A DNA stretch of 64,000 bases, taken from positions 170,190 through 234,189 of the forward strand of contig JAUIAV010000008.1 in NCBI GenBank assembly GCA_030425195.1. The letters run 5' to 3'. This stretch comes from Gammaproteobacteria bacterium (GTDB taxonomy: Bacteria; Pseudomonadota; Gammaproteobacteria; Pseudomonadales; Azotimanducaceae). Position numbers and translations under genes: made by a program. A model generated the notes under the pieces. It worked only from the letters and a program-made list of their open reading frames with translations, had not been told where the DNA came from and made no database searches. How positions within the stretch are numbered: position 1 is the stretch's first letter; every line of letters begins with the position of its first letter. Shown here in pieces: positions 37,318 through 64,000 of this stretch.

Positions 37318-39471
37318 GTGTCGTCCAGCGGTTCAGCAGCCGGTGCCAGCACCGGATCCAGGGTTACCAGGCGCACGTTCTGCCGGGTCTGTGAACCCGC
37401 CTGCGGAATGATCGCCACCGTGGAGAAGGGTGAGCTGATCAGGCTCGAGGCCGACCGCGACCATCCGGTGTCCCGCGGTTTCGTCTGCAACAAAGGCATC
37501 TACGGTGCCGACGTCCACAACGATCCGGACAGGCTCGACACGCCGCTCAAAAAAGTGGGCCCCGGCCGGTTCGAGCCCATCGGCTGGGATCAGGCCGTCA
37601 CCGAGATCGCCGGGCGCCTCGCTGAGATCAGGTCGAGCCACGGAGCAGAAGCCATCGGCAGCTACACCGGCAATCCGAACGCGTTCAACACGCTGTTCGG
37701 CCCGTCCTACGGGAGCTTCATGCGCCAGCTGGGTGCCCGCTACTTCTTCAGTTCCGGCACTCAGGACTGCGCGAACAAGTTCGCCGCCAGCGAGGCCGTG
37801 TTCGGCACCCGTACGCTGCATCCGCTGCCGGATATCGATCATTCGGATTTCATCCTGATCGTCGGCGAGAATCCGGCGGTCAGCCACATGTCCTTCGTAT
37901 CCATTCCGAATCCCATGGCGCACCTGAAGGCGGCCGTGGAGCGCGGTGCCAGAGTCCTCTACGTGAATCCCCGCCGGATCGAATCCGCATCCATTGCGGG
38001 TGAACTGCTGAAAATCCGGCCGGACACGGACGTTTACCTGTTTGCGGCGCTGATTCACGAGATCGACCGCACCGTGGGCTTTCACGAGTCCGTGCAGGTC
38101 CGGGGTGAGCGCATCGATGAGCTCAGGCGTTTCGTGGCCGACTACCCGCCCGAGCGGGTGGCGGCCGTGACCGGCATTCCGGCGGCTGAGATCCGTGAGC
38201 TGGCCCGGGCGTTTGCCACCGCACCGACCGCGTGTGCGCACATGTCCACCGGTGTGAACATGGGGCGGCAGGGAACGCTCGCCTACTGGCTGCTGCAGAT
38301 GCTCGTGTTCGTCACCGGCAACCTGGGGCGGCGGGGCGGCAACTTCTACTCGCTGGGATTCTACGAGCGCAGCACGGCGGCCGGCCGGGCAGCTCCGGAA
38401 GGCATGCTCGACACACCCTTCGGAGAGGTCCGCAAACCGGGCGGTGTGGGCATCAGCCTGCCGGGAAACCTGCTCGCAAGCTACGTCACGGAGCTGGATC
38501 CGCCCATACGGGCGCTGTTCGTCAGTTCCGGTAATCCGGTGCTCTCGATCGGTGGTGAGGCCCATCTGCGCAAGGCCATGGAATCTCTGGAACTGCTCGT
38601 TTGCGTGGACATCTATCGCAACGCCACCGGGGAGTATGCGGATTATCTGCTTCCTGCCGCCGGCGCCTTCGAGCGGGAGGACATCAACTTCGCGGGGATC
38701 GGTCTGCAGTTCGAGCCCTCGGTTCAGTTCACCGAGGCTGTGGTGCCGCCTGCCCACGACAGGAAACCGGACTGGTGGATCTACGAGCGGCTGTGCCAGG
38801 CCATGGGATTCGATTCGGCCCTCGACGGTGTGCCGGAAGGCGAGCTGCCGGACATGTGGGGCCGGGTGAATGCCATGCTCAGATCCCGTGGCCACGACAT
38901 GGCGGAGCTCCGGGCACGCGGAATCATCGCCTTCGAGCGCTCGGACCCGGAAGACTTCTATGACCGCTACCTGCAGCGGGATACCCAGATGGTGGACTGC
39001 TGCCCCGAAAGCTTTGCCCAGGCCATGGACCGCATGGCCGGGCTCTTCGAGGAAGAGGCCTCCCGGGGCGCCACGGATCTGAAGCTCATCACCAAACGCG
39101 ATGCGTACATGTTCAATTCCTGGTACGCCAACGTGGCGAAGCTCAAAACGAAAGACCGGGACAGGAACTACCTCTACATGCATCCCGAGGATGCGGAAGT
39201 CCGCCAGATCCGGGAAGGTGCGACCGTGCGCATCGAGAACGATCAGGGCGCAATTGCGGCACCGGTCAAGCTGACGGACGATCTGATGCCGGGGGTGGTG
39301 GCCATGAGCCACGGCTGGGGGCAGGCGCAGAGTGCGGGCATGAACGTGGCGAATGCCGCGCCCGGCGTGAACTGCAACGTGCTGCTGCCCTCAGGGCCGG
39401 GCAGCTACGAGCCCCTGTCGAACCAGGCACACATGACGGGAATACCGGTCCAGGTCAGCCTGGAAGGCTGA
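37318..39471 (+). CDS. Molybdopterin (Mo-bisPGD) oxidoreductase, DMSO reductase superfamily
   Basis: CRVCEPACGM 4Fe-4S motif; TQDCANKFAASEAVFG; C-terminal molydopterin dinucleotide-binding region. Confidence 0.92.
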   Translation: MSSSGSAAGASTGSRVTRRTFCRVCEPACGMIATVEKGELIRLEADRDHPVSRGFVCNKGIYGADVHNDPDRLDTPLKKVGPGRFEPIGWDQAVTEIAGRLAEIRSSHGAEAIGSYTGNPNAFNTLFGPSYGSFMRQLGARYFFSSGTQDCANKFAASEAVFGTRTLHPLPDIDHSDFILIVGENPAVSHMSFVSIPNPMAHLKAAVERGARVLYVNPRRIESASIAGELLKIRPDTDVYLFAALIHEIDRTVGFHESVQVRGERIDELRRFVADYPPERVAAVTGIPAAEIRELARAFATAPTACAHMSTGVNMGRQGTLAYWLLQMLVFVTGNLGRRGGNFYSLGFYERSTAAGRAAPEGMLDTPFGEVRKPGGVGISLPGNLLASYVTELDPPIRALFVSSGNPVLSIGGEAHLRKAMESLELLVCVDIYRNATGEYADYLLPAAGAFEREDINFAGIGLQFEPSVQFTEAVVPPAHDRKPDWWIYERLCQAMGFDSALDGVPEGELPDMWGRVNAMLRSRGHDMAELRARGIIAFERSDPEDFYDRYLQRDTQMVDCCPESFAQAMDRMAGLFEEEASRGATDLKLITKRDAYMFNSWYANVAKLKTKDRDRNYLYMHPEDAEVRQIREGATVRIENDQGAIAAPVKLTDDLMPGVVAMSHGWGQAQSAGMNVANAAPGVNCNVLLPSGPGSYEPLSNQAHMTGIPVQVSLEG

Positions 39472-54190: not shown

Positions 54191-56365
<2,175 letters not shown>

Positions 56366-58555
56366 CTACAGATCCACGCGCAGGGCCACGCTGCCGTAGC
56401 GTCCGGGTGCGGAGAGGTAGTTGAACATGGGGTCGTTTTCCGTCCGGTTGCGGACCGAACTCCACTGCCAGTACGTCTTGTCGAAGGCATTGAAGAGGCC
56501 TGCATCGAGGCGGATGTTCGTCGAGATCTGCCAGCTGGCTGTCAGATCGAGAATGGCGTAGCCGTCGGTGGTGACCTGGCCGGGGACACTTTCGTCCACC
56601 CGGTCCTTGGCGGCCACCGCGGTGATGATCATGCCGAGTCGCCAGCGGTCACCCGGGGCCCAGGTCAGCGCGGTGATCAGCTCTGCCGGGTCCACGGTAT
56701 TGAGCGGTTCGTCCGTGGTCCGGTTGTCGCCGCGGGTAATGCTGCCGGCGGCGTCCAGCGTGAGGCCGGGTACCCACTCGTCGAAGGAATAGCCGAATGT
56801 GAACTCGGCGCCGTAGACCCGGGCGTGGTCGATATTGCGGGACTGGAAGATCAGGGTGCCGGACTCGTCCAGACCCAGATTCACCTTGGTTTCGATCAGG
56901 TCGTCGTAGTCGGCGCCGAAAGCGGCCAGTGACCATTGCATGCGGCTGCCGCGGTAGCGGTAGCCGATCTCGATGCCGTCCGAGGTTTCAGGCTCCAGAT
57001 CCGGATTGGGAATGGCCCGGTAGCCGAACAGCGGCAGATTGAAGCCGATGTTCAGATCTTCGAAAGGCGGCGCCCGGAAGCCGTGCGCGTACTGGAAGTA
57101 GGCTTCGGATGCGCTGTTGAAACGCCACAAAGCACCGAATTTTGGCGCCAGGGAGGACTCGTTCTTGTCCACCACCACGGTTCCCGGATTGTCTTCGCTG
57201 AAGACAGCGTCCACCTGAGCATCCAGGTCGTAGCTCTGGTAGCGCAGGCCGGGAATCAGGGTGAGGCGCCCGAAAGAGATCTCGTCATGCACATAGACGG
57301 CGAACTCCTCCACGGTGGAGTTGGGGAAGTCGCGTACGGGCATGGCCTCTCCAAGCAGCCAGTTGCTGCTGATTCCCGTGCTCAGATCCGTGCTGCGTCC
57401 GTCCCGGATCTCCTCCACATCGCTGGTCTCGAAAGAACCGCCCCAGGCGATCCGGTGCTCGGCACGGCGCGTTGTGAAGCCGGACTCCAGATCGATCATC
57501 GCCCCGATGGTCCGGGTGTCGTACCGGAACTGGCGCTCGTTCAGCGTGGCGATGGGTTCGCGCAGGTCTACCGTATTCTGTTCCACACTGACATCCTGCC
57601 AGTAAAGGTTCAGCCTGCCGCCATCGAGCCAGGGGGAGGCGACGTCGAAGTCGTAACCCAGCGTGACGGCGTAGCGGCGGCGCTCGTCGTCGCCGGTGAG
57701 GCCGGTGGTGTTGCGGAACTGGCGGCCCGTGCCGAGCACGCTGACCATGTCCGTCTGCACGTTCTCATCGAAAACCGATCCCTCCAGACGGATCCGGTGG
57801 CCGTTCTCCCGTGTGTAGCCGCTCTTGAGAAACACTGATTTCCGCGTCCGGTCCTGCTGGTCCGGCTCGTCCACGGCCGATCGGTCGATCTCGTGACCGT
57901 CTTTCCTGGAGACGTGCACTACGCCATCGGCGGTGCCGGTTCCGATTCTGCCGCCGGCCGCGAAAGAGCCGTTCAGGGTGGTGGAGTCATCCCGGCCGGA
58001 CCAGGTGGCGCTACCGCCGACATGGGCGTTGCGCCCGTTCAGGTATTCCTGCGGGTCGCGGGTGACGATGGCGAAAACGCCACCCAGCGCATCATTGCCG
58101 AACAGGGTGGAAGCGGGGCCGCGCAGAATCTCCACGCGGGAGATGGCGTCCGCCACCAGGAAGTCCTGGCCCGCATTGGAAAATGAGCCGACGTCGAACT
58201 GATCCGGTATGGGCACGCCGTCGATCAGACTGGCGACCCGGTTTCCGGAGAGGCCCCGAATGGTGATCTCCGTCTCGCCGAAACGGCTGTCGGCCGTGGT
58301 CACGCTGATTCCGGGGGTGTAGCGGGTGATGTCGGAGAGACTGGCCGCCATCTCGTCCATCAGATCGGCATGAGTGATGACGTCCACCTTGCCGACCACG
58401 TTGTCGGCAGGACGGGGCATGCGTGCGCCGACCACCAGGATCTCGTCGATCACACCGATGGAAGCATCGGAAACCTCCGCACAGACGACGCCGGCAGCAG
58501 CGAGCTGAAGGCAGACCACGGCGGCGAACGGCGTGGTGTAACTGGGTAGTCTCAT
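56366..58555 (-). CDS. TonB-dependent outer-membrane receptor
   Basis: Plug ISDITRYTPGISVTTADSRFGETEITIRGLSGNRVASLIDGVPIPDQ; C-terminal barrel ...GSVALRVDL. Confidence 0.93.
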   Translation of the reverse strand: MRLPSYTTPFAAVVCLQLAAAGVVCAEVSDASIGVIDEILVVGARMPRPADNVVGKVDVITHADLMDEMAASLSDITRYTPGISVTTADSRFGETEITIRGLSGNRVASLIDGVPIPDQFDVGSFSNAGQDFLVADAISRVEILRGPASTLFGNDALGGVFAIVTRDPQEYLNGRNAHVGGSATWSGRDDSTTLNGSFAAGGRIGTGTADGVVHVSRKDGHEIDRSAVDEPDQQDRTRKSVFLKSGYTRENGHRIRLEGSVFDENVQTDMVSVLGTGRQFRNTTGLTGDDERRRYAVTLGYDFDVASPWLDGGRLNLYWQDVSVEQNTVDLREPIATLNERQFRYDTRTIGAMIDLESGFTTRRAEHRIAWGGSFETSDVEEIRDGRSTDLSTGISSNWLLGEAMPVRDFPNSTVEEFAVYVHDEISFGRLTLIPGLRYQSYDLDAQVDAVFSEDNPGTVVVDKNESSLAPKFGALWRFNSASEAYFQYAHGFRAPPFEDLNIGFNLPLFGYRAIPNPDLEPETSDGIEIGYRYRGSRMQWSLAAFGADYDDLIETKVNLGLDESGTLIFQSRNIDHARVYGAEFTFGYSFDEWVPGLTLDAAGSITRGDNRTTDEPLNTVDPAELITALTWAPGDRWRLGMIITAVAAKDRVDESVPGQVTTDGYAILDLTASWQISTNIRLDAGLFNAFDKTYWQWSSVRNRTENDPMFNYLSAPGRYGSVALRVDL

Positions 58556-58680: not shown

Positions 58681-58739
58681 ATTCTCTCATGTGGGTCAGA
58701 AGGCGATGAGCGCCTTCGGTTTAGTGGGATAGAGAGAAT
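58681..58739 (+). promoter_or_regulatory. 5' UTR inverted repeat covering SD/start codon of porin gene
   Basis: ATTCTCTC (58681-58688) complementary to GAGAGAAT (58732-58739, includes AT of ATG); inner hairpin GAAGGCG-atgag-CGCCTTC (58699-58717). Confidence 0.45.
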
Positions 58740-59991
58740 GAATACGAAAAACATCCTGGTCGTCGCTTCGGCGGCTATACTGCTATCTATGGTGTGGGCG
58801 GTGCCCGTGCAGGCGGCCGAAGAGAGTGATTCCCTGGACGTGCTGCTCGACGAAGGCAAGGTCATGCTGGACTTCCGCTACCGGTACGAGTTCGTGGAGG
58901 ACGACCGTTTTCCAGAGGACGCCAATGCCTCGACGCTGCGGACCCGGCTGGGCTTCCAGTCCGGCAACTGGAACGGCCTGGACTTCAACATCGAAGTGAA
59001 TGACGTCCGCCACATCCTCTCGAACGACTTCAACGCCGGGGGCGGCACGACGCCGGACCGGACGGAATATCCGGTGGTCCCGGATCCAAAAGGCACGCGG
59101 CTCAACCAGGCGTACGTGAACTACACGGGTATCGACGACTGGGGATTCAAGGTCGGCCGGCAGCGGATCAACCTGGACAATCAGCGCTTCGTCGGCTCCG
59201 TCGGCTGGCGGCAGACGGAGCAGGTGTTCGATGCCGGGACCGTCGGATGGGCCAGCGACAATGCGGACTTTTCCGCGACCTACGTGCAGTGGGTACGCAG
59301 GATTTTCGGACCGGACTCATCCGACGGCAAGCACCGTCAGGATGGCACGATCTTCCTGAATGGCGGGATCGGTACGCCCATCGGCAAGGTCCGCGGCTAT
59401 TACTACCTCATTGATGACGATGACGCAGCGGCGTTTTCCACCGGCACCATCGGTGCTCGGCTGGCCGGAGCCCCCGCGATCAACGATGACTGGTCGCTCC
59501 GCTACGAAGCGGAATACGCGCGCCAGAGCGATGCCGGAAACAATCCGGTGGATTATTCTGCCGATTACTTTCACCTGGCAGCCGCCGCCGTCACCGGCTT
59601 TTTTGACTTCGGTCTCGGATGGGAACTGCTCGGCGGTGACAATGGCAGCGACGGTTACGCGGCCTTCAGAACACCACTGGCGACGCTGCACAAGTTCAAC
59701 GGCTGGGCCGATCAGTTCCTCGCAACGCCCACCCGTGGCCTTTCGGATTTCTATCTCACCTTCAAGGCAACGCCCGGTGACATGATCTTCGACGCCCGCT
59801 TCCACACCTTCGAGGCGGATTCGGGCAGCGCCAAGTTCGGGAACGAGCTCGACTTCCGTGCCGGATACAAGTTCACCAGGCGTTTCAGGGGAGATCTGTT
59901 CCTGGCGGTGTTCGACGCCGACAGTGAGGGGGCGGTGTTCGGCTATGAGGACGTCACCAAGTTCTGGGTGCAGCTCTACTACAACCTGTAG
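58738..59991 (+). CDS. Alginate-export-family outer-membrane porin
   Basis: VMLDFRYRYEFVEDDRFPEDANASTLRTRLGFQSGNWNGLDFNIEVNDVRHI...GFKVGRQRINLDNQRFVGSVGWRQTEQ. Confidence 0.88.
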   Translation: MNTKNILVVASAAILLSMVWAVPVQAAEESDSLDVLLDEGKVMLDFRYRYEFVEDDRFPEDANASTLRTRLGFQSGNWNGLDFNIEVNDVRHILSNDFNAGGGTTPDRTEYPVVPDPKGTRLNQAYVNYTGIDDWGFKVGRQRINLDNQRFVGSVGWRQTEQVFDAGTVGWASDNADFSATYVQWVRRIFGPDSSDGKHRQDGTIFLNGGIGTPIGKVRGYYYLIDDDDAAAFSTGTIGARLAGAPAINDDWSLRYEAEYARQSDAGNNPVDYSADYFHLAAAAVTGFFDFGLGWELLGGDNGSDGYAAFRTPLATLHKFNGWADQFLATPTRGLSDFYLTFKATPGDMIFDARFHTFEADSGSAKFGNELDFRAGYKFTRRFRGDLFLAVFDADSEGAVFGYEDVTKFWVQLYYNL

Positions 59992-60161: not shown

Positions 60162-60317
60162 ATGGCTGATCAGGGCGACGACGATAGGGATGTGCCGGTA
60201 ATGCAGCGCATCCTGGACAATCCTTTCATTCTTCTCTTCATTGGCATCCTGATACCCACGATGACGTACATCATCTGGGGCATCATGGAACTGATATCGA
60301 TTCCTATCGCAGATTGA
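60162..60317 (+). CDS. 51-aa single-TM protein, putative accessory subunit of heme-copper reductase
   Basis: ATG at 60162 to TGA at 60317: MADQGDDDRDVPVMQRILDNPFILLFIGILIPTMTYIIWGIMELISIPIAD; just upstream of CuA subunit; below cutoff of ORF track. Confidence 0.75.
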   Translation: MADQGDDDRDVPVMQRILDNPFILLFIGILIPTMTYIIWGIMELISIPIAD

Positions 60318-60337
60318 CTGACCGGGGGTAGCGGAAG

Positions 60338-60898
60338 ATGACGAGTCTGGCACCACCGAGCAAGAAAATCTGGTGGAAAGAACCCATAGAAAAAGGGGAG
60401 CTGATCTGGATAGCCGTGGTGGTTGTCTGGGGCATCATCCTCACCCTGATGATGCCGTTCTGGCACATCTACGGGGAGCAGAACCTTTCCAGCGAAGCGT
60501 ACAAAACCACGGCCGAGGCCTTCCAGGCGAAGACCATGGCGGTGGTGGAAGAGTACACCGTGCGGACGGAAGGACCCTTCAACAAGCCGGTCGTAAAGCC
60601 GCCGGCCGGAGCGGACATCTATCTCATCGGCCGTCTCTGGGACTGGTGGCCGGCCTATGAGCTGGAGAAGGGGCAGAGTTACCGCCTGCATATCAGTTCG
60701 ACGGACTGGCAGCACGGCTTTTCCCTTCAGCCGGCCAACATCAACGTGCAGGTCCTGCCGGGATACGACATGGTGATGACGGTCACTCCGAACAGGACGG
60801 GCGAACACACGATCGTCTGCAACGAATACTGCGGTATCGGACACCACAACATGCTGGGGACGATACACGTGGTGGAGGGAGGTGCCAGCGGTGAGTAG
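60338..60898 (+). CDS. CuA-containing subunit II of heme-copper oxidoreductase (NorS/CoxB-like)
   Basis: CNEYCGIGHHNM CuA motif (CX3CX3HX2M); N-terminal TM. Confidence 0.9.
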   Translation: MTSLAPPSKKIWWKEPIEKGELIWIAVVVVWGIILTLMMPFWHIYGEQNLSSEAYKTTAEAFQAKTMAVVEEYTVRTEGPFNKPVVKPPAGADIYLIGRLWDWWPAYELEKGQSYRLHISSTDWQHGFSLQPANINVQVLPGYDMVMTVTPNRTGEHTIVCNEYCGIGHHNMLGTIHVVEGGASGE

Positions 60899-62600
60899 CG
60901 CAACAGCAAGCGATTTCCGGACCTGCCCCGACACGGGGCTCAAGTTCCACAGACCTGCAGAGGCGCTGATCAAGGCCAATGCCGTCGCAGCAGTGGTTTT
61001 TCTCCTGGTGGGTGGTGTGCTCGGCCTGCTCGTGGGCCTCACCCGCTGGCCTGAAGTGCACCTGCTCGAAGCGGACGCGTTTTATCAGGTGCTCACGGCG
61101 CACGGCATCAACGTGCTGATCTTCTGGATGATCTTCTTCGAGATGGCGGTGCTGCAGTTCTGCTCCTCCACGCTGCTCGGCTGCCGGATCGCAACGCCGA
61201 GGCTCGGCTGGGCATCCTGGGGGCTGATGGTGATCGGCGCACTGCTCAACAACTACGCCGTTCTGTGGAAAGGCAACTCGAGCGTCATGATGACGTCCTA
61301 CGTGCCGATCCCGGCCGACACCTGGTTCTACGTCGGCCTGATCCTGTTTGCCGTCGGTGCCCTCATCAACTGCTTCATCTTTCTCGCCACCCTGGTGATC
61401 GCCAAATCGGAACGGACCTATGAAGGGTCGCTGCCTCTGGTCACCTTCGGTGCTCTGACGGCGGCGATTATCGCCATCTTCACCATCGCGTCCGGTGCAG
61501 TCATCCTGATTCCGACTCTGCTCTGGAATCTGGGATTCGTGAGCCACATCGACGCCGGCGTTTACCGGCTCATCTGGTGGGCGTTCGGACATTCCTCTCA
61601 ACAGATCAATGTGGCCGCGCATGTTGCCGTCTGGTATGCCATCGCGGCGATCGTATTCGGCGCCAAGCCGCTGTCCGAGAAGGTCAGCCGTTTCGCGTTC
61701 CTCATGTACATCGCCGTCCTGCAGATCGCCAGCGCGCACCACCTGCTCGTCGATCCCGGCCTGAGCTCTGAATGGAAGATCTTCAATACGAGTTACGCCA
61801 TGTATCTCGCGGTGATGGCCAGCATGGTTCATGGTCTGACGGTGCCCGGTTCGATAGAAGCCGCACAGCGGGCCAAGGGATTCAACTCGGGCCTCTTCGA
61901 ATGGCTGAGAAAAGCGCCCTGGGGAAATCCGGTGTTCTCCGGCATGTTCCTCTCGCTGGTCGGCTTCGGCGTGCTGGGCGGTATTACCGGCGTGGTGATG
62001 GGTGCTGAGCAGATAAACCTGATCGTGCACAACACGCTCTATGTGCCCGGCCACTTCCACGGCACCGTGGTGGTGGGGTCCACGCTGGCATTCATGGCGC
62101 TCACCTACTGGCTCGTGCCCATTCTGTTCCGGCGGGAGCTGATTCTGCCCAGGCTGGCGAGCTGGCAGCCTTATCTGTTCGGGCTCGGTATGACGGGGGT
62201 CGCGCTGTTTCTGATGGGTGCCGGGACGCTGGGAGTGCCACGCCGGCATTGGGACATTCTGTTCTCGAGTGCGCCCGGCGGCGGCTACGAGTTCTCCGCA
62301 GCCGCGCTGACGATGATGAGTCTGAACGGCATGTCTGTCGTTCTCGCCTGTCTGGGCGGCGCGGCGTTCATCCTGATCGTAGTCGGCTCCCTGCTTTTCG
62401 GCCGGAAGCTCGACGAAGAAGAGAAGGTTGGAAGAGAGATGATCGCCACGCCACCCGCGGAAGCATCCTATGCGGGGATCGGCTCCGGCAGTATCACGAT
62501 TCCCGGAACGCTGGTGATGGTGTTCGTCTTCTTCGCTGCCTTCGCGCTGTACTACTTCATCAACTGGAAGTACCTGGCCGAGACCTGGGGTATCAGCTGA
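60882..62600 (+). CDS. Heme-copper oxidoreductase subunit I, NOR-like (sNOR/eNOR-type candidate)
   Basis: His ligands TAHGINV, GHSSQQ, AHHLL, GHFHG; HPEVY Tyr replaced (HSSQQ). Confidence 0.82.
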   Translation: MPAVSSATASDFRTCPDTGLKFHRPAEALIKANAVAAVVFLLVGGVLGLLVGLTRWPEVHLLEADAFYQVLTAHGINVLIFWMIFFEMAVLQFCSSTLLGCRIATPRLGWASWGLMVIGALLNNYAVLWKGNSSVMMTSYVPIPADTWFYVGLILFAVGALINCFIFLATLVIAKSERTYEGSLPLVTFGALTAAIIAIFTIASGAVILIPTLLWNLGFVSHIDAGVYRLIWWAFGHSSQQINVAAHVAVWYAIAAIVFGAKPLSEKVSRFAFLMYIAVLQIASAHHLLVDPGLSSEWKIFNTSYAMYLAVMASMVHGLTVPGSIEAAQRAKGFNSGLFEWLRKAPWGNPVFSGMFLSLVGFGVLGGITGVVMGAEQINLIVHNTLYVPGHFHGTVVVGSTLAFMALTYWLVPILFRRELILPRLASWQPYLFGLGMTGVALFLMGAGTLGVPRRHWDILFSSAPGGGYEFSAAALTMMSLNGMSVVLACLGGAAFILIVVGSLLFGRKLDEEEKVGREMIATPPAEASYAGIGSGSITIPGTLVMVFVFFAAFALYYFINWKYLAETWGIS

Positions 62601-62652
62601 TACGCCGGCAGGACGCGGAGGCGGTCATCCGGCCGGACGATCGCCTCCCGCC

Positions 62653-63546
62653 ATGTGCCACTTCCTGACGGAGCTTTCCGTGATCGCTCAGATTGTCGAC
62701 ATCTTCAAGCTGCGCATCGGGCTCTTCATGGCGGTCACGGCCCTGGCCGGCTACGCCGTCACGCCTGGCGTCGAACTTTCGCTGGTAGAGCTTGCCCTGC
62801 TCGCCCTGGTGACCCTGGGGGCATCCGGCGCGGCCGGTGCGTTCAATCAGTTCATGGAATGGGACCTGGACGGCCTCATGAAGCGGACGGCCTCCCGGCC
62901 GTTCGTCACGGGTGCGGTGCGCAGAGAGGACTGGTGGTTGTGGCTCATCGGAGGTCTGCTGCTCACCTCGGTGCTCGCCGCCGCCTGGTGGTTCAATGCG
63001 GCCGTGGCCGTGCATCTGTTTCTCGGCGCCTTCTTCTATGGTGTGGTGTACACCCTCTGGCTGAAGCGCCGCACGCCGCTGAACATCGTCATCGGCGGTG
63101 CGTCCGGAAGCTTTGCCGTTCTGGTTGGCGCCTCCGCGGCGGATCCCTCGCTCAGTGCGGCCTCGGTGCTGCTGGCCATCGTTCTCTTCCTGTGGACGCC
63201 GCCGCACTTCTGGGCGCTGGCGATCGCACAGAAGGAGGAATACGCGGCTGCCGGAGTGCCCATGCTGCCGGTGGTGACCGGTGATGCTCAGGCGGCGCGG
63301 ATCATCCTGCAGAACACGCTGCTTCTGGTGGCGGTTTCGCTGCTGCCGGTGCTGTTCGGCATGGGATGGCTGTACCTGATGGGCGCCGCGGCGGGCGGCG
63401 GGTACTTCGTTTACCGCAGCCTTCGTCTCGACCAGCGTCCGGAGAAGCTTCAGGCCATCCGGTGTTTCCTGGCTTCCCTGGTGCAACTCCTGCTGCTGAT
63501 GGTGACGGCCATTCTCGATCCGCATTTCCACTGGCCGGTCTTCTGA
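62653..63546 (+). CDS. ctaB: Protoheme IX farnesyltransferase (heme O synthase)
   Basis: NQFMEWDLDGLMKRTASRPFVTG UbiA/CyoE motif; polytopic. Confidence 0.92.
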   Translation: MCHFLTELSVIAQIVDIFKLRIGLFMAVTALAGYAVTPGVELSLVELALLALVTLGASGAAGAFNQFMEWDLDGLMKRTASRPFVTGAVRREDWWLWLIGGLLLTSVLAAAWWFNAAVAVHLFLGAFFYGVVYTLWLKRRTPLNIVIGGASGSFAVLVGASAADPSLSAASVLLAIVLFLWTPPHFWALAIAQKEEYAAAGVPMLPVVTGDAQAARIILQNTLLLVAVSLLPVLFGMGWLYLMGAAAGGGYFVYRSLRLDQRPEKLQAIRCFLASLVQLLLLMVTAILDPHFHWPVF

Positions 63547-63547
63547 G

Positions 63548-64000
63548 ATGAAAACCGTGGTTCTTACAGTGCTGACGGTGGTTCTGGGCCTGCTGCCCGG
63601 CAGTGTGGTGGCGGAGGAATCCGGATTCGAACGCAGCGAGGCGCTGGCGATCAGCCAGGCGGCCATCGGCAGAACCCTCGGCGCCTACCGTTTCCGGAAC
63701 ACACATGGACAGACGGTTTCACTCGATCAGTATGCCGGGAAACCGCTGGTGATCAGCCTCATATTCACGAGCTGTTATCACATCTGCCCGGCCACCACTC
63801 AGCATCTGGCGAAGGTGGTTCGCAAAGCGCGGGACGTGCTCGGCGATGACAGTTTCAATGTGGTGACCCTCGGGTTTGATGCGCCCAATGACACCCCGGA
63901 CGCCATGCGGGTTTTTGCCGCGCAACAGAGCGTGAACCTGAATGGCTGGGATTTCCTGGCCGGTGAGCAGACGGCCATCGACGCGCTCGCTGTGGAGCTC
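63548..64000 (+). CDS. SCO1/SenC family copper chaperone, truncated by window end
   Basis: ATG at 63548; signal peptide then GKPLVISLIFTSCYHICPATTQHL (CxxxC); open to 64000. Confidence 0.88.
   Translation, partial: MKTVVLTVLTVVLGLLPGSVVAEESGFERSEALAISQAAIGRTLGAYRFRNTHGQTVSLDQYAGKPLVISLIFTSCYHICPATTQHLAKVVRKARDVLGDDSFNVVTLGFDAPNDTPDAMRVFAAQQSVNLNGWDFLAGEQTAIDALAVEL

Follow-up and report, generated by a model that had tools for sequence, protein, structure and literature searches.

A CuA-containing enzyme of the eNOR family, a probable nitric oxide reductase, and its wider gene cluster in a gammaproteobacterium that carries nirS

The heme-copper operon at the end of the window, by which is meant here the whole stretch of 64,000 nucleotides that was analysed, raises the question of whether an enzyme with a CuA subunit is a terminal oxidase that reduces O2 or a reductase of nitric oxide (NO), and, in the latter case, to which of the described NO reductase families it belongs. 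The first-pass annotation of the sequence had favoured a CuA NO reductase over a terminal oxidase, on the ground that the cross-linked active-site Tyr is absent from an otherwise intact set of metal-ligand motifs, and had left the choice between sNOR and eNOR undecided. When the sequence was re-read, every His motif reported in it, and the CuA motif, were found in place within positions 60162-64000.

The window ends where its contig (C42) ends, in a genome of 4.63 Mb on 45 contigs that is rated 100% complete. The operon, on the forward strand, consists of genes for a 51-aa peptide, a CuA-bearing subunit II, subunit I, a heme O synthase and a SCO protein (Table 1). The 51-aa peptide has no family match in profile searches, and in 83 of 86 loci the gene for a homologue of it immediately precedes that for subunit II; because it occupies the gene position of subunit IIa of the ba3 oxidases (PMC3128077), it is read as a third subunit. 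A CuA-bearing subunit II adjoins subunit I in 84 of the 86 loci, and a heme O synthase lies near eNOR in 39. The CuA site of the present subunit II is intact, as had been claimed. Subunit I scores 222 bits against the COX1 profile, and the second of its two possible starts is the better placed, behind GGAGG.

Table 1. Features of the locus and of its inferred continuation on contig C4
Feature	Position	Strand	Basis or remark
NirS (cytochrome cd1 nitrite reductase), extra N-terminal cytochrome c domain	54191..56314	-	PF02239 and two cytochrome c domains
TonB-dependent heme-type receptor beside nirS	56366..58555	-	TIGR01785 and TIGR01786 over cut-off
Outer-membrane porin (alginate-export/Opr-like)	58738..59991	+	Also near nirS in relatives
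51-aa single-TM peptide, subunit IIa-like	60162..60317	+	First gene of operon, conserved ORF
Subunit II, CuA motif CNEYCGIGHHNM	60338..60898	+	Matches T. thermophilus CuA domains
Subunit I, putative eNOR catalytic subunit, Gln241 and His317	60882..62600	+	GTG start 60882, maybe GTG 60891
Heme O synthase (CyoE/CtaB)	62653..63546	+	TIGR01473 over cut-off
SCO1/SenC copper-insertion protein	63548..64000	+	PF02630; cut by contig end
Cytochrome b, two [4Fe-4S] sites and FlpD (MvhD-like) domain, fusion	L192:291-1856 (contig C4)		After SCO
COX1 homologue without CuB His pair	L192:4287-5732 (contig C4)		Homologues in L011-L083

The six metal-ligand histidines of subunit I are kept in the motifs TAHG (H74), GHSSQQ (H237), SAHH (H286, H287) and GHFHG (H391, H393), and in the alignment they correspond to His72, His233, His282/283, His384 and His386 of the ba3 oxidase. 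The residue that stands opposite ba3 Tyr237, the cross-linked Tyr of helix VI, is Gln241, which confirms the loss of that Tyr. Gln is invariant at this position in all 72 aligned rows of the Q type, as Tyr is in all 27 rows of B-family oxidases, and because every relative at 64-89% identity keeps the Gln, its presence in the window's enzyme is not a matter of chance. The other position at which a cross-linked Tyr is known, that of the cbb3-type Tyr in helix VII, which precedes the CuB His pair by six residues, is occupied in subunit I by Leu280 and in eNOR by Leu or Ile, and both known positions are empty in all of the relatives aligned; the genome's own cbb3 oxidase, which served as a control, has its Tyr in helix VII and none at the helix VI position. 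The replacement of Tyr237 speaks against a B-family O2 reductase of the ba3 kind, and Leu280 against a C-family (cbb3) O2 reductase.

The fold likewise resembles that of the B family. The nearest solved relatives of subunit I are the T. thermophilus ba3 oxidase and another B-type oxidase (7deg), these being the best PDB hits (TMq about 0.76) of a predicted model whose mean pLDDT is 83, with a weak stretch immediately ahead of the helix X His. The likeness to ba3 extends to the His ligands, the CuA subunit and the small subunit IIa; the two catalytic subunits differ, at about 26% identity, in the replacement of Tyr237 by Gln, Trp239 by Asn, Tyr244 by Val or Ile and Thr312 by His. In a larger alignment, Gln240, Asn243, Glu87, Tyr276, Asn302, Tyr305 and His317 are also invariants specific to the Q clade.

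The identity of the residue at the Tyr site is informative about family, since the published codes for this site are Q for eNOR, N for sNOR and for bNOR (the Bacillus CuA enzyme), and D for gNOR (PMC8756737 Table A4). The placement of subunit I in a heme-copper tree, which the first-pass annotation had proposed as a check, was carried out with 70 rows comprising Q rows, Tyr-bearing B-family sequences and A-family sequences as the outgroup, the Thermus copies standing in for published eNOR accessions. The Q rows are all united in a single clade (100/100), next to which stands that of the Tyr-bearing B family (85/88). The window's subunit I lies outside the latter and deep inside the Q clade, among sequences from gammaproteobacterial MAGs. 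This is not the nesting within B-family O2 reductases, with a Tyr elsewhere in the active site, that the first-pass annotation had named as a refutation: the Tyr is missing from both known cross-linked positions. Thermus, which is counted among the eNORs (PMC8756737), has plasmid copies that carry the Q, and its copies group with those of Thermomicrobium and with the window's subunit I in the Q clade. Because of the Gln at the Tyr site and the position in the tree, the enzyme is assigned to eNOR rather than sNOR, which settles the choice left open at first; we put the probability of membership in the eNOR family, as judged from sequence, at about 0.95. Two plasmid eNORs of Thermus thermophilus (L099, L100) read GHFK, with the low-spin heme His replaced by Lys, where all other Q-type rows have H, and a divergent eNOR branch (L137, L138) at 53% identity, with the motif LAHSTQQ, comes from small-genome members of another proteobacterial family (f46).

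An sNOR of the ammonia-oxidiser type would be a CuA two-subunit NO reductase too, and the present CuA subunit II and SCO neighbours recall the norSY-senC arrangement (PMC6967387), but sNOR carries Asn at the Tyr site (PMC8756737 Table A4), in place of which the window's enzyme and all 72 Q rows have Gln; the sNOR reading is accordingly rejected on the residue and must be considered extremely improbable. When B-family sequences were sought in 369 Gammaproteobacteria, those that were aligned were all of the Tyr or the Gln type, and no Asn-type (sNOR or bNOR) sequence was found. A gNOR is ruled out in the same way, as it would need Asp in the position of Gln241. The cNOR and qNOR enzymes share the proposed reaction, but they have Glu at the Tyr site (PMC8756737 Table A4) and are related to the C family (PMC11388526), whereas the window's enzyme is related to the B family and has a CuA subunit.

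The eNOR family, which is the same as subtype ba3-a1, has already been described. A clade sister to the B family and missing the catalytic Tyr was noted in 2019 (PMC6431628), and according to a later account it was renamed eNOR after NO reductase activity had been reported (PMC8879329); another source lists eNOR among the biochemically characterised NO reductases (PMC11388526). Members are known from Proteobacteria, Thermus and Chloroflexi (PMC8756737, PMC8879329), and of 397 other genomes sampled across the phylum, 29 were found here to have close homologues. The window's enzyme shares with the family the Gln at the Tyr position, the CuA subunit II, the relation to the B family and the six His ligands, and its catalytic core shows no difference from it; since eNOR is a known and common family, the operon adds another member to it.

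NO reduction is very likely the main activity of this eNOR, the Gln at the Tyr site and the clade making a CuA NO reductase, rather than a terminal oxidase, the best reading of the sequence. The opposing proposal is that of a high-affinity O2 reductase which dispenses with the canonical Tyr and draws on a donor such as Tyr305 or on a radical elsewhere. Tyr276, Tyr305 and Tyr180, and nearly so Tyr308, are indeed conserved throughout the Q clade but not shared by ba3, and for the related sNOR of N. europaea the case has been made that it is an oxidase (PMC6967387). Against this proposal stand the absence of Tyr from both known cross-linked positions in all of the relatives aligned, which also rules out O2 reduction by way of a Tyr displaced to the cbb3 position, the presence in the genome of aa3 and cbb3 oxidases, and the reports of NO reduction by members of the clade (PMC11388526, PMC8879329). 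We therefore regard an O2 reductase as very unlikely.

From the sequence anatomy, the clade and the genome content, which were observed, we infer the substrate, the electron and proton routes and the heme type of the eNOR as follows. Electrons would enter at CuA in subunit II and pass by way of the low-spin heme (H74/H393) to the site formed by the high-spin heme (H391) and CuB (H237, H286, H287), where two molecules of NO would be converted to N2O; with Gln241 in place of the cross-linked Tyr, the extra electron and proton donor for O2 splitting would be missing. Protons would probably arrive through a K-type channel, of which Tyr252, Ser314 and Thr320 (ba3 Tyr248, Ser309 and Thr315) are kept, together with the invariant His317, which takes the position of ba3 Thr312, the site of Lys362 in the A family (PMC12901375 Table 2). 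The heme may be of type O or type A, because CyoE and a CtaA-like protein are both encoded in the cluster as extended below. The source of the NO would be the neighbouring NirS, and the N2O would be the final product.

The genome contains four genes of the COX1 family, namely those of the aa3 and cbb3 oxidases, the eNOR and a divergent homologue lacking CuB, and no cNOR or qNOR is among them; NosZ models found nothing in the genome beyond the CuA stretch of subunit II. Because no cNOR, qNOR or NosZ was found in the genome, N2O is the likely end product if NirS works. For NarG, the sole match in the genome was a weak cross-hit on a different molybdopterin enzyme. In the window itself, a short gene product at 37318-39471 (+) belongs to the formate dehydrogenase/DMSO reductase superfamily of molybdopterin oxidoreductases and falls below all specific cut-offs.

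NirS is encoded 3.8 kb upstream of the eNOR operon on the opposite strand, and it is reasonably likely that it supplies NO to the eNOR within the same cell. NirS homologues occur near eNOR in 26 of the 86 loci, about 20 of them being close in sequence, and the window's NirS is well conserved along the whole of its cd1 part. Both observations weigh against the alternative that the eNOR, while still an NO reductase, serves mainly to detoxify NO from outside, and not a nitrite-respiring pathway in this cell, an alternative which is in turn favoured by the failure to find NarG, NosZ or heme d1 synthesis genes in the genome, because of the last of which NirS may be idle, and by the absence of a close nirS from most of the sampled eNOR loci within the DNA examined. 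Detoxification is possible but is not the reading that we prefer, which is that the eNOR receives its NO from NirS.

The maturation of this NirS presents a further problem. NirJ and NirD/L/G/H were not found in the genome, nor was a second d1-type protein (such as NirF or NirN) besides NirS, and incompleteness of the genome is an unlikely cause here, given a completeness of 100% by the tool's figure, though it may account for missing genes in some of the relatives surveyed below; because heme d1 synthesis genes were not detected, NirS may be inactive without an imported cofactor. The protein aligns with PDB 5guw_M over 538 residues, and its extra cytochrome c domain resembles the tethered cytochrome of three-domain NirK. 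A C1-C2-NirS layout has been called unique to Chloroflexi (PMC8756737), and the window's NirS has such a layout in its order of domains. In a survey of 18 related genomes reached via eNOR loci, mostly MAGs, five had a NirJ over the cut-off together with three strong d1-type proteins each, and 13 had no NirJ over the cut-off, NirS being the sole strong d1-type match in 12 of these; besides the window's genome, seven of the 13 relatives without NirJ have the two-cytochrome NirS. One family of TonB heme-type receptors (34-94% identity) lies directly beside nirS in all eight genomes with a two-cytochrome NirS, and within the DNA examined in none of 11 with an ordinary NirS, although two of the 11 regions are short, the counts are small and the receptor is of a general heme-receptor type.

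This association suggests the hypothesis that heme d1 is imported through the adjacent receptor, which we hold to be improbable; heme d1 synthesis genes that were not recognised, an inactive NirS, or ordinary heme uptake by the receptor could each stand in its place. A literature search, judged by title, found nothing relevant on heme d1 uptake with TonB receptors. A broader proposal, to which we attach equally little confidence, is that of a nitrite-to-N2O module in a host unable to make heme d1, in which NirS would be matured with imported heme d1 or a late precursor, and the NO would be removed by an eNOR that is fed by an FlpD fusion and accompanied by a heme-only homologue lacking CuB.

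The last two components are encoded on contig C4 (5,972 bp), which starts inside the same SCO gene and carries its C-terminus. Exactly nine residues are missing between the ends of C42 and C4 in 15 of 15 relatives checked, and because of this constant gap in SCO, C4 is inferred to follow C42. It encodes a cytochrome b-two-[4Fe-4S]-FlpD fusion, an uncharacterised protein, a CtaA-like protein, a second SCO and a COX1 homologue. Almost every proteobacterial eNOR cluster has the fusion after SCO. Of the relatives with at least 4 kb of downstream sequence, 63 of 64 have both the fusion and the uncharacterised protein; near the Thermus or Thermomicrobium eNOR copies no fusion was found within the DNA examined. 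Electron transfer between quinol and soluble carriers on behalf of eNOR is a possible role of the fusion; a literature search for FlpD joined with ba3 and NOR found nothing.

Where at least 5.8 kb of downstream sequence is available, 30 of 54 relatives have the COX1 homologue. It retains the His ligands of the hemes (H78, H354, H356) and that of helix VI (H225), and the helix VII CuB His pair is found in none of 29 aligned homologues, because of which a standard CuB site is impossible; the heme-copper oxidases matched by the structure predicted for one of these homologues (pLDDT 85.9) are 12-18% identical to it. The wider cluster, with its cytochrome b-ferredoxin-FlpD fusion and CuB-less homologue, was not found described in the literature searched, and the extension of the eNOR cluster on C4 (the FlpD fusion, the uncharacterised protein, CtaA, the second SCO and the CuB-less homologue) is new in the present work.

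Within the heme-copper superfamily, this genome encodes no NO reductase other than the eNOR; it has nirS and no detected nosZ, and, as far as its gene content indicates, the bacterium probably turns nitrite into N2O, a greenhouse gas. The first-pass statement that CuA NO reductases are usually misannotated as cytochrome c oxidase holds for the plasmid relatives, which are annotated as cbb3-type oxidases, and since genes of this kind are labelled cytochrome c oxidase by automatic annotation, the capacity to reduce NO and produce N2O is undercounted. The wider cluster provides testable leads on the electron supply to eNOR, and the neighbours of nirS raise the testable question of cofactor sharing between denitrifiers.
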